Source: Clostridia bacterium (GTDB lineage: Bacteria; Bacillota; Clostridia; Oscillospirales; CAG-382). From it: a stretch of DNA of 18,155 nucleotides. This document shows, one piece after another, positions 3,883 through 13,295 of this stretch (position 1 is the first letter of the stretch; the number at the start of each line of letters is the position of its first letter). Below the pieces are notes generated by a model, which had not been told where the DNA came from, ran no database searches, and saw nothing but the letters and a program-made list of their open reading frames with translations. Where the stretch lies: NCBI GenBank assembly GCA_017397605.1, contig JAFQII010000282.1, positions 1 through 18,155 on the forward strand, in the 5' to 3' direction. A program made the position numbers and the translations under genes.

Positions 3883-4320
3883 ATGTCGGGAAAACTGCAA
3901 AAATTCAAAGCGAACGCGAGCGCGCTGACGCTCGCAAAGGACGCGCAAAAGATTCTCATGCACAACGAGAAGACGGTGCAATACGGGCTGGTGCTGACCA
4001 AGGAACAGGCCGTCGAGCTGTTGGAAACACAAGCGCACGAGCAACGCTACCACGGACGGCTGGAGTTTGGAGAGGGGCCCGTCGGCAAGCTGATCGACGC
4101 GTTTGCCGACTCGCCTTACATCACGCGGCAGAATTACGCCGACACCCTGCACGCACTGGTCGAGACATTTTATTACTACAAAAACGAGACGGAAGACAAG
4201 CTGACCGACGACGAGCTGATCGAGTACATGCGCAAATTCTTCAACGGCTCCTGCGAAGGCTCGATCGAACTGCTAAGCTCCCGCGAGCTGGACAGCCTTG
4301 CGCGCGCTCTGCGTTATTGA
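3883..4320 (+). CDS. DUF6323 family protein
   Basis: 145 residues. The pattern 'YGLVLTKEQAVELLE...HGRLEFGEGPVGKLIDAFADSPYI...NYADTLHALVETFYYYKNET.D.LTDDELIEYMRKFFNG' matches what I know of DUF6323, a small helical cytoplasmic family of unknown function in Clostridia. No membrane segment or signal peptide. ATG 3883 is preferred to an upstream in-frame start because it has GGAGA 7 nt upstream and lies just after the promoter at 3822-3849. The next gene starts 12 nt after the stop, with its ribosome site at the stop codon, so the two are cotranscribed. DUF6323 and DUF6179 genes commonly sit together, which suggests a shared function. Family assignment is from memory of the motif; function unknown. 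Confidence 0.8.
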   Translation: MSGKLQKFKANASALTLAKDAQKILMHNEKTVQYGLVLTKEQAVELLETQAHEQRYHGRLEFGEGPVGKLIDAFADSPYITRQNYADTLHALVETFYYYKNETEDKLTDDELIEYMRKFFNGSCEGSIELLSSRELDSLARALRY

Positions 4321-4332
4321 GGAGGAACGGAT

Positions 4333-5199
4333 ATGCTGCAAAAAAGAACCTTGCTCTGCAAAGAAAACCTCCGCGACAGCGCTTACCTTGAGGACCTGCT
4401 TGCCGAGGGCGAGCGCGTCGGCGCGCTGACGGAAACAGACTCCGCACGCGTCCAATACGACGTGCTGGAGCTGTTGCAAAAACGGCTGGAATCCCTTTAC
4501 GGCAAGCGCACGAGCTCCGTCCCCGACGAGATCGCCGAGGAACTGATGGAAAGTGTGCTGTACACCGTCTCTTTGGCGCTCCGCGCGTCGCCCGACCCCG
4601 ACGCGGCACTGCGCATGCTGTGCGACACGCCGATGGAGCTGTTGTATCAAAAAGGCTTGCGGTACTGCCGCATTCTCTTGCGCGACGTGCGCGTGCTGAC
4701 GAAAAAACTGCAAGCGGAAGAGACGCCCGCGTTCAACCCGTTTTACCGCGCCGCGATCGGCAGAGACCTGGCCGCGTTTTTGCGCGCCTACAAACCCGAC
4801 AGCCGTGCGCACGAGCATTCGTTTTTTCCGATTTACGCCGTGACGGAAACAAAAAACACCCTCTCGGGTGTCTTGTTTGTCCGCGATTATGCCAAGCGGC
4901 TGCTTGCGGAAACGCGTTTTTGCAATCTGTTTGACCGCACAGAGCTGTCCTACGTCCTTTCGTCTCCGCGCGCACGGGGAGAAAACGTGTTTGAAGCCGT
5001 CCTGCGGCAAGCGTCCGTCAGCGTCTTGGCGCTCGGAACGGTCAGCCTGCGCACCACGCAAGAAGACGCGCGCTTTGTCCGTGAGACCTTTGACGCGCGC
5101 GAAGCGGAAAAGCAACTCCGAAACGCGTTTGTGCGCTTTCCGTTTGCGTTTTCGACGCTGGAACGGCTCTCGCGGGAATTGACGGCAAAAAGCCGTTAG
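4333..5199 (+). CDS. DUF6179-like protein, partner of the DUF6323 protein
   Basis: 288 residues, mostly charged and helical, cytoplasmic. The N-terminal half (ESVLYTVSLALRAS...ALRMLCDTPMELLYQKGL) and the segment 'FFPIYAVTETKNTLSGVLFVRDYAKRLLAETRFCNLF' resemble DUF6179, the usual neighbour of DUF6323. It seems shorter than the DUF6179 proteins I recall. A GGAGG site immediately after the upstream stop codon sets the start at 4333. The stop TAG (5197-5199) overlaps the TAA of the convergent ABM gene (5196-5198), so the two transcripts share their 3' ends and no terminator fits between them. Function unknown; the family call is moderate, the gene itself is certain. Confidence 0.75.
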   Translation: MLQKRTLLCKENLRDSAYLEDLLAEGERVGALTETDSARVQYDVLELLQKRLESLYGKRTSSVPDEIAEELMESVLYTVSLALRASPDPDAALRMLCDTPMELLYQKGLRYCRILLRDVRVLTKKLQAEETPAFNPFYRAAIGRDLAAFLRAYKPDSRAHEHSFFPIYAVTETKNTLSGVLFVRDYAKRLLAETRFCNLFDRTELSYVLSSPRARGENVFEAVLRQASVSVLALGTVSLRTTQEDARFVRETFDAREAEKQLRNAFVRFPFAFSTLERLSRELTAKSR

Positions 5200-5632: not shown

Positions 5633-6244
5633 TCAGAACTTCTCGCTGCGGTGCTTTTCGGACAGGAAATGACATTTGCCCCCGTTTTCGGGATACAAAT
5701 AATCGCTGAACGCCTGCGGCCCGATCTTCATCAGCCGTTCCAGCTCCGCTTTGCAAAGCAACACGACCTGCAAACACGCGGCGGTCTTGAGCATGCCCAG
5801 CTTGCAACGCAGAATGCCCGCATCCTCGATGACCTGCGGGAACTCAACGAACGCCGCGATCATTTCGTCGTCCGCGTCCTCGTTCTCCCATTCAAAGCTG
5901 TGTCCGTAGGTGATGTGCGTCTGACAGCAATACGCATAAGAAGCGATCATCAACAGCTTGCTGTGATACCATTGCAACGTTTCGCGGTCCTCAAGGTTTT
6001 CGCCGCGGTCGACAAACATGATGTACTCGTTGTGCTGCGAGATCGTGTTGGAAACCGCCGGCATTTTGTAATCGCTCGCACCCATCGTGACCAATTTCCA
6101 AAACGGGTATTTTTCGCTCGGCTTGTACAACAGCACGTCGACGTGATACGCGCCCCCGTCCACGGGATGCAAAACCGTACAGTCCGTCTGCTCAAAATAG
6201 CGGTCAAAATGCGCAACCAGCTTGTCCATTTCTTTTGTTTTCAT
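5633..6244 (-). CDS. SUFU (suppressor of fused) domain protein
   Basis: 203 residues from ATG 6244, which has AAGGGGAC upstream; longer in-frame readings have no ribosome site and overlap the RDD gene. Family features are 'HPVDGGAYHVDVLLYKPSEKYPFWKLVTMGASDYKMP', 'NEYIMFVDRGENL', and 'HITYGHSFEWE'. In eukaryotes SUFU binds Gli factors. In bacteria the fold is widespread and several members have been proposed as immunity proteins of polymorphic toxins. No toxin gene is visible here, so that role is only a possibility. It lies 14 nt after the RDD gene and is probably cotranscribed with it. The C-terminus (CHFLSEKHRSEKF) may be cut short by a frameshift, given the coding-like remnant just downstream. 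Confidence 0.85.
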   Translation of the reverse strand: MKTKEMDKLVAHFDRYFEQTDCTVLHPVDGGAYHVDVLLYKPSEKYPFWKLVTMGASDYKMPAVSNTISQHNEYIMFVDRGENLEDRETLQWYHSKLLMIASYAYCCQTHITYGHSFEWENEDADDEMIAAFVEFPQVIEDAGILRCKLGMLKTAACLQVVLLCKAELERLMKIGPQAFSDYLYPENGGKCHFLSEKHRSEKF

Positions 6245-6258
6245 ATTGGGTCCCCTTT

Positions 6259-6651
6259 TTATTTTTGTTTGATCTGTTTGATCACGGTCGTGGCGGTCGC
6301 CATGTCGCCGAGCGAACGGCCCGTCGCCAGCAAAACGATCGCGTCGATCGGATATACAAAGAAAAAGATGTTCCGCAAGATCAGCTTGCCCTTTGAAGGC
6401 GCTTCCCACGTCCGATCGTCCTTGACGCAAAGCCCAAGCATGCGCTTGGCAACGCTTCTGCCGCCAAACATCACGTCCCGAAGAACAAACAGCGCAGGGT
6501 AAGAGGCGACCAGCAACAGCACAAGGATCACGTCAAGCGGACGCACACCTCGCTTTTCGATCGCTTCCAACACAACAAACGAGCCGACCAGCGCAGGAAC
6601 GCCCGATAACAGCCAGTCCACAACAAACGCCAGCATTCTTTTGAGCTTCAT
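6259..6651 (-). CDS. RDD family membrane protein
   Basis: 130 residues with three probable membrane segments: about residues 6-28, 38-60 and 90-110. The family signature is present: basic R5 and acidic D12 in the first helix (RMLAFVVDWLLSG), 'GGRSVAKRMLGLCV' after the second, and D103 in the third helix (VYPIDAIVLL). RDD proteins are small inner-membrane proteins of mostly unknown role; some are linked to ion exchange. GGAGGAA lies 5 nt before ATG 6651. The SUFU gene follows after 14 nt. No promoter is obvious in the 30 nt upstream, so transcription may come from beyond the avd-like gene. Confidence 0.88.
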   Translation of the reverse strand: MKLKRMLAFVVDWLLSGVPALVGSFVVLEAIEKRGVRPLDVILVLLLVASYPALFVLRDVMFGGRSVAKRMLGLCVKDDRTWEAPSKGKLILRNIFFFVYPIDAIVLLATGRSLGDMATATTVIKQIKQK

Positions 6652-10333: not shown

Positions 10334-10340
10334 GAATTCA

Positions 10341-10370
10341 AGAGGCTGAGTCCAAGACTCAGCCTCTTTT
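10341..10370 (+). terminator. Terminator of the TetR-oxidoreductase unit
   Basis: Perfect 12-bp stem AGAGGCTGAGTC / GACTCAGCCTCT (10341-10352/10356-10367) with a 3-nt loop and a T run. Its right arm and T run are repeated exactly at 10676-10690. Confidence 0.9.
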
Positions 10371-10690
10371 CATGTGTCTGCGGATCATCCGCAGACACAA
10401 TTCATGCGCTGCTTGCAGCGCTATTCATGCACAGCGTGAAACGCGCTATTCATGTGTGCGACAGCACACAATTCATTCACTAAATGCAAAAACGAGTCAG
10501 ATCGAACATATCGAAAACGCACAGAACCTTTTAGAGGATGAATTGCACCGCAAGCGGTGCATGAATTGTTCCCGTGCCGTACGCCACGGAAACATGAATT
10601 GACGGGGAGTGAATGCTCCCCGTCATGAATTGTGCCGAGCGTAGCGCAAAGCGCGCTCGGCACATTGGGCTGAATGACTCAGCCTCTTTT
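10356..10690. repeat. 15-bp direct repeat flanking hairpin array B
   Basis: GACTCAGCCTCTTTT occurs at 10356-10370 and 10676-10690, exactly at the two edges of array B. The right copy also keeps a GGCTGA arm (10668-10673), so it can still form a shorter terminator hairpin. This looks like a target or terminator duplication at insertion. Confidence 0.7.
10371..10675. repeat. Hairpin array with ATTCATG / CATGAAT linkers (array B)
   Basis: Left half: hairpins with stems at 10374-10383/10389-10398 (10 bp), 10406-10412/10415-10421 (7 bp), an imperfect one at 10433-10447, and 10453-10459/10464-10470 (7 bp), separated by (A/T)ATTCATG. Right half: stems 10544-10551/10554-10561 (8 bp), 10572-10589 (palindrome with one C-C mismatch), 10601-10609/10616-10624 (9 bp) and 10632-10641/10654-10663 (10 bp), separated by CATGAATTG. 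The two halves are in inverted orientation around a 67-nt centre (10478-10544) with no such units. The stems differ in sequence; only the linkers are conserved. It fills the gap between two convergent genes. Confidence 0.85.
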
Positions 10691-10696
10691 GTCCCT

Positions 10697-11836
10697 TTAT
10701 TCCAATACGTTTGCGTCGCGCAGGGTTTGCAAAAACTCGTCGAGATCGGCGGAAGCGACCTCTTTTTCGACCTCAAACTCGGCGAGAAGCTGCTCCAGCA
10801 AAAGCTCGCGCGTGGTCTCCTCGGTCATTTTCTCCCACAAAAACGCGCCGACCTCGTTGAGCATGATCGCGCCCTGCGCCGCCGCGGAATCCGCGCCGAC
10901 GGGAACGACGATGTACTCGTCCAGCATCTTGCGCATGACAAAATTCTTTTTGATCTTCATGGTATCTTCTCCTTCGGGTAATAGAATCACTTGTTCGGGA
11001 TGCTCCAACGCCGCAAGCAGGGTTTCTCCCGCCGAAACGTCGTTTTTGCAATACATACGGAACACGGGCACGCGCTCCGCGGCACGGCTGATCGTTGCGA
11101 TCACGTCGCCGACCGCCCCGCTGTCCCACAGCGGCAGGGAAACGCGTTTCATCAACAGCTTCGCCGCGCGCTTGGGCGGCAGGCGGTACAGCTTGTCCAC
11201 ACCGCACTTTTTGACCTCGATGACCGCGCCCAGCGGACGGGAATCGTTGATAAAGATGTTTTCTTTTCCGCTCCACGGCGCGCCGTAGGCAATAAACGTG
11301 CCGTTTTCTTCCCGCACGATCGGTCTGTCGCCGTTGAGCATCCAGACGCCTTCAAATGCCTTGCGGACGTTGCCCGCCAGCGTGCTTTTGCCCGCACCCG
11401 ACTTGCCCGTCGTGCAGTATGCCTTGCCGCCGTAAACAAACGCGCAGGCGTGCAAGGATAACACCCCGAGGGATGCAACGTGTTGTTCAAAAGCCATGCG
11501 GAACAATACGCGCAAGGAATCGGTCGCGTCCGTCTCGCCGTCCACGTACACCGTCCAGGTGTCCCCGTCGGCTAACAGCGCGCACGACTTGTCGCGCGGC
11601 ACGACAAATAAACGTCCCGACGAATCGGCATTTCCGACCGAACTGACGCGCATGGACGTACTTGAAAAAACCGCCTCGCCGTTTGGCGGGGCGGCTTTTA
11701 CGACCTCAATTGTAATGGGTTGCGAGCCCGGCGCGGTATCAACCTGAAACACGCGCAAAGACGCAAGGAAGTTAGCGGGTAGTAGTGTTTCGTTTTTTAG
11801 AACGAATTTCACTCCCGCGAGTGTGAGGTAGGACAT
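10697..11836 (-). CDS. HPr-kinase-like (HprK/PEPCK-fold) protein fused to a PqqD domain
   Basis: 379 residues. Residues about 1-110 are a divergent N-terminal region. Residues 125-285 are an HprK-like kinase domain: P-loop G144-KSGAGKST-152, then 'MLNGDRPIVREENG' (the usual Asp pair is Gly-Asp here) and 'AYGAPWSGKENI', a motif of RiPP-associated HprK-related proteins. Residues 293-379 (MKIKKNFVMRKM..., AIMLNEVGAFLWEKM, LLAEFEVEKEV) are a PqqD domain, which binds precursor leader peptides and presents them to radical SAM enzymes. The fusion is notable. A strong ribosome site (AAGGAG) and ATG at codon 293 could also give free PqqD. The start at 11836 lies 9 nt after the peptide stop with no visible ribosome site, suggesting translational coupling. 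It looks GC-richer than its two upstream partners. Confidence 0.85.
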   Translation of the reverse strand: MSYLTLAGVKFVLKNETLLPANFLASLRVFQVDTAPGSQPITIEVVKAAPPNGEAVFSSTSMRVSSVGNADSSGRLFVVPRDKSCALLADGDTWTVYVDGETDATDSLRVLFRMAFEQHVASLGVLSLHACAFVYGGKAYCTTGKSGAGKSTLAGNVRKAFEGVWMLNGDRPIVREENGTFIAYGAPWSGKENIFINDSRPLGAVIEVKKCGVDKLYRLPPKRAAKLLMKRVSLPLWDSGAVGDVIATISRAAERVPVFRMYCKNDVSAGETLLAALEHPEQVILLPEGEDTMKIKKNFVMRKMLDEYIVVPVGADSAAAQGAIMLNEVGAFLWEKMTEETTRELLLEQLLAEFEVEKEVASADLDEFLQTLRDANVLE

Positions 11837-11845
11837 GGGATTATA

Positions 11846-12046
11846 TCAAGTAAGTGGTACATCCTCGTACATGCCTGTACCAACACTTTCTTTGTCGCAA
11901 CCAGTATGCGCATCGTGAATCGCAGGAGTAAAATTATACTCGCTCTCGTAATTACATTTGACGGTAGCAGTACCACCAGAAGCAAAAAGGTGCTCTGAAA
12001 AATCATATTTTGCTACTACAATGATCGGCTTCTGATACTTTTTCAT
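11846..12046 (-). CDS. Candidate RiPP precursor peptide
   Basis: 66 residues from ATG 12046, with AAAGGA 6 nt upstream (a TTG further up would overlap that site). The N-terminus MKKYQKPIIVVAKYDF followed by SEHLFASGG looks like a leader with an 'ASGG' boundary at residues 22-25. The presumed core (residues 25-66) holds two Cys (C31, C50), three Tyr, two His and a short acidic tail ending in Thr66 (EDVPLT). It sits between a radical SAM/SPASM gene (stop 40 nt upstream) and the kinase-PqqD gene (9 nt downstream), all on one strand. The position and the leader-like start make it the likely substrate. I recall similar 'MKKYxKP...ASG' starts in clostridial peptides next to radical SAM genes, but cannot check. 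The modification is unknown. Confidence 0.7.
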   Translation of the reverse strand: MKKYQKPIIVVAKYDFSEHLFASGGTATVKCNYESEYNFTPAIHDAHTGCDKESVGTGMYEDVPLT

Positions 12047-12085
12047 AATGAATCCTTTCAAAATATATTCATGACATTTTTCTAC

Positions 12086-13210
12086 TTATTTGCTTTTTCG
12101 ATACAACATCGGTATCAACATACGCATTTTTTTGTTGCACGGAATGTTCCCGGCAAGCCCGTCTGTACTCCCTGAAGAATTGGCATATCGAGCGGCACAA
12201 AAGGTGCATTCGTCAAAAAAAGCACATGCCAAGCACTCTTCGCTTCGGTGATACATTTTCGCCGCGATGTTTATCTTTTTCCATGCATCCGCGAAACCGT
12301 CGGCGAGAACATCTGCTTTTGCCAACGGAAACTCTCCACACGGAAGCATGACACCGTCATAGCCTATATGGAAAGCACTCAATCCGGCTGCGCACGGCAT
12401 TTTGTTATACCGTTCTTGCGAATCATCAACTCGTCCTTCAAGGAAATCCTCATCACACAGTTTGCCTGTTTCTCTGCCCTTCCAAGCAAGCACTTGCGTT
12501 CTCACAGAAAGTTGTTCTTCGTACGACAACGAATAGTCCTCAAAATTATGACCACTGCTCTCGATTGGCGCAATTAAATCGCAATCAACAATTACACGCG
12601 TTTGATCAAAAGAGTTGGCATATTGCCACAATCCACTTAAATCATCCAAATTATACTTTGATATTGTTAGTGCAATTTGAGGTAGCAAATTTGTTTGCAT
12701 TAATTCCCGAAGCGCAAAATCTACTTTATAAAATGCGTTCGCATCTCCCGTGACGCGTTCATATACTTCCGGGGAACTGCCATATACACTAATCTGCAAA
12801 AAAATCGGCGGAACCGTAGCAAGAAACTCAATCATCTCTTTGTCAAGTAATGTGCCATTCGTCAATATTGTAATGTGCACACCTTTTTCTTTGAGACGCA
12901 TATATATTCGTTTGAAGTCGGGATGTAGCATACACTCCCCGCCAGTCAAAGTGGCGTGTAACATCCCCATATCAATCGCTTGATCCATGATGTCGATCCA
13001 CTCGTCACCCGTCAAAACACGGTGCGGATACTTGCCGTCCGAGCGATGCACATAGCACATCTTGCAATCCAAGGTGCAGTGTGGCGTGAGTTCAAAACGC
13101 CCCATCAAAGGCAATCCGCGTTTTTCATACTCAACGCGAAGGTTCCGTAGCATCTGTCCAAACCGCTTTTGAGGTTCCACATTCGCAACTTGTTCCATGA
13201 TCGTAGCCAT
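12086..13210 (-). CDS. Radical SAM/SPASM peptide maturase
   Basis: 374 residues. The radical SAM cluster motif is C45-x3-C49-x2-C52 (PHCTLDCKMCYVH), followed by the 'TGGE' SAM-binding motif (ATLTGGECMLHPDF) and 'TILTNGTLLD'. A SPASM-type C-terminal region carries C273, C291, C326-x2-C329-x5-C335-x2-C338 and C358, enough for auxiliary iron-sulfur clusters. This architecture is typical of enzymes that install thioether or carbon-carbon bonds in ribosomal peptides. GAGGAGG lies 8 nt before ATG 13210, and a near-perfect promoter (13268-13295) drives it. Codon use is clearly AT-richer than the neighbouring kinase gene. The product bond type cannot be predicted from sequence. Confidence 0.92.
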   Translation of the reverse strand: MATIMEQVANVEPQKRFGQMLRNLRVEYEKRGLPLMGRFELTPHCTLDCKMCYVHRSDGKYPHRVLTGDEWIDIMDQAIDMGMLHATLTGGECMLHPDFKRIYMRLKEKGVHITILTNGTLLDKEMIEFLATVPPIFLQISVYGSSPEVYERVTGDANAFYKVDFALRELMQTNLLPQIALTISKYNLDDLSGLWQYANSFDQTRVIVDCDLIAPIESSGHNFEDYSLSYEEQLSVRTQVLAWKGRETGKLCDEDFLEGRVDDSQERYNKMPCAAGLSAFHIGYDGVMLPCGEFPLAKADVLADGFADAWKKINIAAKMYHRSEECLACAFFDECTFCAARYANSSGSTDGLAGNIPCNKKMRMLIPMLYRKSK

Positions 13211-13267: not shown

Positions 13268-13295
13268 ATTATATAAAAAACACTTTAAATGTCAA
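13268..13295 (-). promoter_or_regulatory. Promoter of the radical SAM-peptide-kinase cassette
   Basis: Minus-strand TTGACA (13290-13295), 16-nt spacer, TATAAT (13268-13273), about 57 nt before ATG 13210. Both hexamers are perfect. No second promoter is obvious inside the cassette. Confidence 0.8.

Follow-up and report, generated by a model that had tools for sequence, protein, structure and literature searches.

Can a single ribosomally made peptide be the substrate of both a serine kinase and a radical SAM enzyme? This question is raised by an 18,155-nt stretch of DNA from a Clostridia bacterium (GTDB CAG-382; contig JAFQII010000282.1, assembly GCA_017397605.1), hereafter called the window, in which three frames on the minus strand encode, in this order, a radical SAM/SPASM enzyme, a 66-aa peptide and a fusion of an HprK-like kinase to PqqD, with gaps of ~40 nt (radical SAM/peptide) and ~9 nt (peptide/fusion). 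A sequence-only reading of the window had given the same strand and order, and we found all three frames present and intact. Our analysis makes it likely that the product is a doubly modified RiPP (ribosomally synthesized and post-translationally modified peptide), phosphorylated on Ser and modified by the radical SAM enzyme, probably at Cys.

Conserved leaders recur beside related radical SAM enzymes

The small frame (66 aa, 11846..12046, minus strand) has an AAAGGA box ~7 nt ahead of its ATG. A contig scan for relatives of the radical SAM enzyme gave 237 confirmed places; we retained the 80 best, which represent 79 distinct loci, and compared sense and antisense open reading frames (ORFs) of 30–130 aa lying ≤700 bp from the enzyme. 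A strict leader pattern was found in 68 of 397 sense ORFs (51/79 loci) versus 4 of 372 antisense ORFs (4/79 loci); since this pattern was drawn up after viewing a first list, it is the antisense control that carries weight. With the looser pattern M..[YW]xxP, 79 distinct sense ORFs gave the plurality consensus YETPxVEKVEFDYxDQVVASG, whereas 21 antisense ORFs did not. Moreover, a leader profile built from the other loci had the 66-aa peptide as its sole above-threshold match among 248 window ORFs (E 5e-5; next 3.8), and the peptide outscored all 2000 of its own shuffles, although the profile is not wholly independent of the motif idea because its leaders were picked by pattern. The earlier reading had named conservation of the small ORF beside related enzymes as a check on its proposal; this check was run here, and peptides with related leaders do recur there. 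The leader-profile result and the sense/antisense contrast rule out a chance ORF, and on these sequence comparisons the 66-aa ORF is a genuine precursor gene.

Two peptides resemble the window peptide beyond its leader, namely P0002, which is 75% identical and its one close relative in the protein database, and the peptide of locus L021, where the enzyme is 53% identical to that of the window and the cassette is equally compact. A gapped alignment of the three peptides shows some core positions in common (Y, YN-TP, Cys, GxY). An alignment-based search for homologues added only the L021 peptide, which was already within the query.

A conserved serine at the predicted leader/core border and cysteine-rich cores

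The leader part (residues 1–22, 11981..12046), matched by the profile of the sense-strand ORF family, contains the putative docking motif Y4xxP7. At its predicted border with the core stands Ser23 (11978..11980), the predicted phosphorylation site, 19 residues past Tyr4. A Ser at this distance from the leader Tyr was present in 47 of the 79 distinct sense YxxP ORFs, but in only 3 of the 21 antisense ORFs. The core part (residues 23–66, 11849..11980) contains Cys31 and Cys50 and is the predicted target region of the radical SAM enzyme. For Cys counts we used 61 precursors, filtered by leader pattern and Ser: Cys made up 7.4% of their cores versus 0.19% of their leaders, with exactly two Cys per core in 41/61 and two or more in 55/61. 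Such enrichment suggests that the enzyme acts on Cys or that the cysteines form disulfides. Some precursors beside a fused kinase have a CTWYSG-like core (e.g. L030 10704, L074 9184). A precursor sub-type occurs at L082, L083, L090, L094 and L097, with no kinase detected in the stretches covered; in all but L094 of these, the cores contain repeats of Gly-Arg or Gly-Lys, with Arg-Asn-Ser-Gly as a tail.

The radical SAM/SPASM enzyme and the kinase-PqqD fusion

The putative maturase (374 aa, 12086..13210, minus strand; PF04055, E 5.2e-21) carries a CxxxCxxC motif (C45, C49, C52) and seven further cysteines (C273, C291, C326, C329, C335, C338, C358) in a pattern that we take to be SPASM-type, and all of these cysteines are invariant across 26 aligned sequences. 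Its closest solved relative by profile is SkfB (E 6.5e-25). Among the 25 NCBIfam families listed of 82 matched, the enzyme was under the curated cut-off for every one (best 83.7 bits), and no RiPP recognition element (RRE) was detected on it. A single promoter had been proposed for the cassette, in agreement with a candidate element, TTGACA-16-TATAAT, ahead of the radical SAM gene (13268..13295, minus strand), which is a consensus match only, at 12/12 positions; a promoter scan of the region gave 7 matches of ≥9 versus 4.0 by chance.

The fusion (379 aa, 10697..11836, minus strand) consists of a kinase domain with the HprK/PEPCK fold (~residues 1–290, 10967..11836) and a PqqD/RRE domain (~residues 291–379, 10697..10966). 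The kinase half had no match to a Pfam kinase model and matched HprK-related NCBIfam models weakly (E 0.003, 0.027), far under their cut-offs. Nevertheless, it matched solved HprK sequences by profile (E 2e-4), and structure comparison of a model (pLDDT 92.9) gave the HprK/PEPCK fold. Its P-loop (GKSGAGKS), H129, K150 and D170 are invariant in 20/20 fusions. PqqD (PF05402) was matched at residues 307–378 (E 1.5e-15), so that the kinase-PqqD fusion described in the sequence-only reading is borne out by profile, fold and domain match alike. The RRE resembles those of lasso peptides, and its N327 and D364 correspond to the Asn and Asp (LppB N33 and D70) by which YxxP leaders are gripped. The window genome contains a second PqqD match (G000:C40:4725-4907, L129; E 1.4e-5), within a 481-codon open frame.

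Relation to LPPs and other known systems

Linear polyphosphorylated peptides (LPPs) were first reported in 2026 (Popov et al.) from the lpp cluster of Paenibacillus alginolyticus (PMC13381572). As described in the main text of that report, their clusters encode a SpI-type peptidase, an RRE, an HprK-like kinase, an NTP transferase and an MsbA-like exporter, often within capsule loci; the precursor motif is YxxPxVLxHQxIxFETxxS, and the active kinase polyphosphorylates core Ser3, 18 residues past the leader Tyr (PMC13381572). The window cassette resembles these clusters in its HprK-like kinase (by profile, fold and invariant H/K/D), its RRE with the Asn33/Asp70-type clamp, its YxxP leader and its conserved Ser 18–19 residues past Tyr, and many relatives have an S24/S26-type peptidase, an NTP_transf_5 nucleotidyltransferase and an ABC transporter nearby. 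It differs in having a radical SAM/SPASM enzyme and a Cys-rich core; its RRE is fused to the kinase where that of LPPs is discrete; its precursor has YxxP and the Ser at +19, not +18, and lacks the LxHQxIxFET part, both LxHQ and FET; and its relatives occur outside Bacillota too, to which LPPs are said to be restricted (PMC13381572). Because a discrete RRE, the SpI-like peptidase, the nucleotidyltransferase, the MsbA-like exporter and the full leader motif were all sought in the window and not found, we class the cassette as RiPP-type and as an LPP variant with a radical SAM enzyme; by the published definition it is not an LPP cluster. The earlier reading could match the combination to no named class; LPPs match several of its parts (kinase, RRE, YxxP leader), but the LPP report uses neither 'radical' nor 'rSAM' anywhere in its main text (PMC13381572).

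Other systems share single features with the cassette. A PqqD-type RRE, a conserved-leader precursor and a modifying enzyme are present, as in RRE-dependent RiPP pathways generally. The lasso peptides paeninodin and pseudomycoidin have in common with it an HprK-like kinase, a PqqD-type RRE and YxxP/WxxP-type leader recognition, and pseudomycoidin also resembles relatives of the cassette in its nucleotidyltransferase; the paeninodin kinase is described as acting on the C-terminal Ser (PMC9266682). A lasso peptide was rejected: when 18 window ORFs, the part of the genome covered here, were scanned with Pfam, neither a B2 protease nor an Asn-synthetase-like cyclase was found. With the sactipeptide and ranthipeptide systems SkfB, AlbA, StsB and PapB the cassette shares a radical SAM/SPASM maturase and a Cys-bearing core, but the enzyme is under the model cut-offs, has no RRE seen on it and is accompanied by a kinase. 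SynChlorMet and GeoRSP (NCBIfam names) likewise combine a radical SAM enzyme with a PqqD-type chaperone, but the scores are far under cut-off (ScmE 83.7 of 400, GeoRSP radical SAM 67.3 of 400). Among the open-licence entries and abstracts listed by literature searches, none describes a RiPP pathway that combines an HprK-like kinase with a radical SAM enzyme. A defence system and a phage origin were also rejected: PADLOC matched the radical SAM enzyme only, via viperin models, and PHROG at E 0.01 gave no match for the kinase or for the peptide, and general radical SAM families for the enzyme.

Other loci from the window's family or order (L102, L104, L105, L110, L111, L114, L120 and others of L101–L120) have an HprK-like kinase, often accompanied by PqqD, but lack a related radical SAM gene. 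Pfam on a few of their neighbours gave S24 and NTP_transf_5 in L102, S24 below cut-off in L105, CpsB in L104 and a ParA-type ATPase in L111, and short YxxP ORFs lie upstream of the kinase in L110 (7011-7136) and L120 (6482-6589). These sets are possible LPP systems of this order.

Gene content and origin of related cassettes

Accessory genes were counted in the 36 loci with ≥4 kb on both sides, using home-made exemplar profiles, not Pfam, for the peptidase, ABC and nucleotidyltransferase families. An S24/S26-type peptidase was found in 26, an ABC transporter in 22, NTP_transf_5 in 16 and none of these in 6, L021 included; an apparent ABC transporter match in L021 was the kinase P-loop, and such matches were left out. 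The stretch around L021 is without peptidase, exporter and nucleotidyltransferase. Thus, the absence of an exporter and a protease noted earlier holds for the window contig and the L021 stretch but is not typical, and a product acting inside the cell, which had been offered as one explanation, is unsupported, since 26/36 well-flanked relatives have the peptidase. The window genome is 61% complete, so missing partners may sit in unassembled parts. Elsewhere in it we found two S24 matches, on C278 (no LPP genes by eye) and C197, and an NTP_transf_5 (PF14907) gene (L132 1495-2709) on the 6.9-kb contig G000:C160, where other LPP genes were not noticed by eye.

In a kinase tree of 88 rows (L021–L099 collected via the radical SAM gene, L101–L120 via the kinase), the window pairs with L021 (100/99) within a 24-row clade (100/98), 21 rows of which are fused and 23 of which have a radical SAM gene within ≤2.5 kb. 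This clade stands apart from the radical-SAM-free kinases of the window's own genus and family, although the way in which the rows were collected partly builds in the radical SAM label. Searches for the window enzyme in 62 other family genomes (E ≤ 1e-60) and in a further 393 genomes taken from the order (E ≤ 1e-75) gave no match, and horizontal gain is likely on this account at the thresholds used; a more distant enzyme with kinase, PqqD and precursor does occur in the order (G073, L106). A misbinned contig was ruled out: the adjoining Gfo/Idh gene is 85–86% identical in four congeners and syntenic there with a TetR gene, and the contig therefore fits its genus. For the kinase, peptide, radical SAM and GH127 genes there was no tblastn match (E 1e-5) in six congener stretches, some reaching only 1.5–2 kb past Gfo/Idh. 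No intact fusion of this type was found in the congeners searched, the best match (G001, 33% identity) crossing stop codons over separate kinase and PqqD frames.

Base composition differs within the cassette, with GC content at third codon positions (GC3) of 0.34 for the peptide, 0.46 for the enzyme and 0.72 for the fusion, compared with 0.72–0.77 for five neighbour genes. Enzyme GC3 was below kinase GC3 in 45 of 67 enzyme-kinase pairs (62 loci), a count uncorrected for relatedness in which one place appears twice (L007 = L106) and some pairs are near-copies. Seven of the 67 differ by >0.15, all enzyme-lower and all with fused kinases; enzymes this far under a nearby fused kinase occur in the window, L024, L030, L034, L086 and L088. 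This suggests that the radical SAM and kinase-PqqD modules differ in origin. Two enzymes were present in 8 loci, and in the 6 of these with one common kinase (L024, L030, L034, L065, L079, L088) a precursor comes after each enzyme. Together, the GC3 contrast and these loci lead to the hypothesis that enzyme-precursor pairs may be swapped around a kinase-RRE hub.

Several other features of the window appear unconnected with the cassette or adjoin it. The former are a SUFU-domain protein (5633-6295, minus strand) and a DUF6323-DUF6179 pair (3892-5199, plus strand). The non-coding stretch 10334-10700 has several hairpins with the words ATGAATTG (four exact copies) and CAATTCAT (two) between them and may be a repeat element. 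A 13-bp perfect stem-loop lies past the Gfo/Idh gene, and its arm recurs at 10676.

Weighing the double modification

A number of observations weigh against a doubly modified product. No member of the family has a known product or activity. A Ser anywhere at +18 to +20 was present in 63/79 sense and also in 11/21 antisense ORFs, which leaves the +19 peak as the sole informative signal. The protein database returned only the window peptide itself and P0002, the L021 peptide is 41% identical over just 32 residues, and 20 of the 57 loci that have both kinase and PqqD gave no match to the strict precursor pattern. The loci were gathered by the radical SAM gene, and its presence beside the rest is therefore partly built in; in stretches gathered via the kinase, only 1/20 (L106) has a related radical SAM gene nearby. 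HprK was absent among the 50 entries listed by VIA-align, PEPCK filling the list, and Gly169-Asp170 replaces the HprK Asp-Asp, so that the kinase chemistry might differ. Finally, the window yielded no S24/S26-type peptidase (home-made profiles; Pfam on 18 ORFs), no nucleotidyltransferase and no MsbA-like transporter (home-made profile).

The Gly-Asp replacement, found in 19/20 fusions, would suit a pathway of the sactipeptide or ranthipeptide type, with the kinase domain a catalytically silent RRE carrier. The relationship to SkfB, a sactipeptide maturase, and the predominance of two-Cys cores fit such a pathway, and some relatives have precursor and PqqD with no kinase in the stretch covered (e.g. 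L082, L090). However, a dead carrier would not need the P-loop, H129, K150 and D170 that all 20 fusions retain, and the same kind of kinase is active in LPPs, according to the main text of that report (PMC13381572); we regard a silent kinase as improbable. Nearly the same low probability attaches to the converse, that the kinase alone modifies the peptide and the radical SAM enzyme is a passenger or acts on another substrate. Kinase, RRE, leader and Ser position do follow LPP logic, the same taxonomic family has kinase-PqqD sets that lack a related radical SAM gene, and the way in which the loci were gathered means that the enzyme's presence is not independent evidence. Against this, conserved leaders lie directly beside the enzyme in 51/79 loci, each enzyme of the six two-enzyme, one-kinase loci is followed by a precursor, and Cys-rich cores suit radical SAM chemistry. 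That the cassette is the decaying remnant of a larger cluster that has lost its peptidase and exporter would agree with the peptidase near most well-flanked relatives and with the interrupted G001 match, but is very unlikely given three open frames with conserved catalytic residues and the same compact form in L021, which indicates that the compact state probably predates the window.

Discussion

For the doubly modified RiPP that we favor, we propose the following pathway. The leader of the 66-aa peptide would use Tyr4-x-x-Pro7 to dock into the fusion's RRE domain, and the HprK-like kinase would phosphorylate a Ser where leader and core adjoin, with Ser23 the likeliest site. The same RRE would bring the radical SAM/SPASM enzyme to the core for a modification that most likely takes place at, or by way of, Cys31/Cys50; our first guess is a thioether-type crosslink. 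Sequence and comparison establish the genes, a recurring precursor family, the fold predicted for the fusion, its RRE clamp residues, Cys-rich cores and a conserved Ser, while leader binding, phosphorylation, the radical SAM reaction type, the step order, the product and its role are inferred. Leader removal and export would rely on genes elsewhere, or may not happen. The pathway would then be LPP-like, extended by radical SAM chemistry and with kinase and RRE in one protein.

A broader proposal, which we put forward tentatively and hold to be somewhat less likely than its opposite, is that of a new class of phosphorylated and radical-SAM-modified RiPPs in at least four phyla, with the kinase-RRE as a fixed hub and radical SAM-precursor pairs as exchangeable units. 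Such a class would, to our knowledge, contain the first pathway whose Ser kinase and radical SAM enzyme share a single leader and a single RRE. If true, the kit would extend past Bacillota to Bacteroidota, Actinomycetota and Synergistota, a spread taken from record titles and lineages of mostly metagenome-assembled genomes; the records of L080 (Blautia sp. MSJ-9) and L054 (Prevotella ruminicola KHT3) name cultured strains. Which end products phosphorylated RiPPs give, and what roles these play, is left open in the main text of the LPP report (PMC13381572), and for these questions the fused kinase-RRE, the defined Ser and the short operon offer a compact three-protein system. The cassette appears to be an as yet undescribed relative of the LPP peptide family and, if our reading is true, a family of peptides from gut and rumen bacteria joins phosphorylation and radical chemistry on one peptide.
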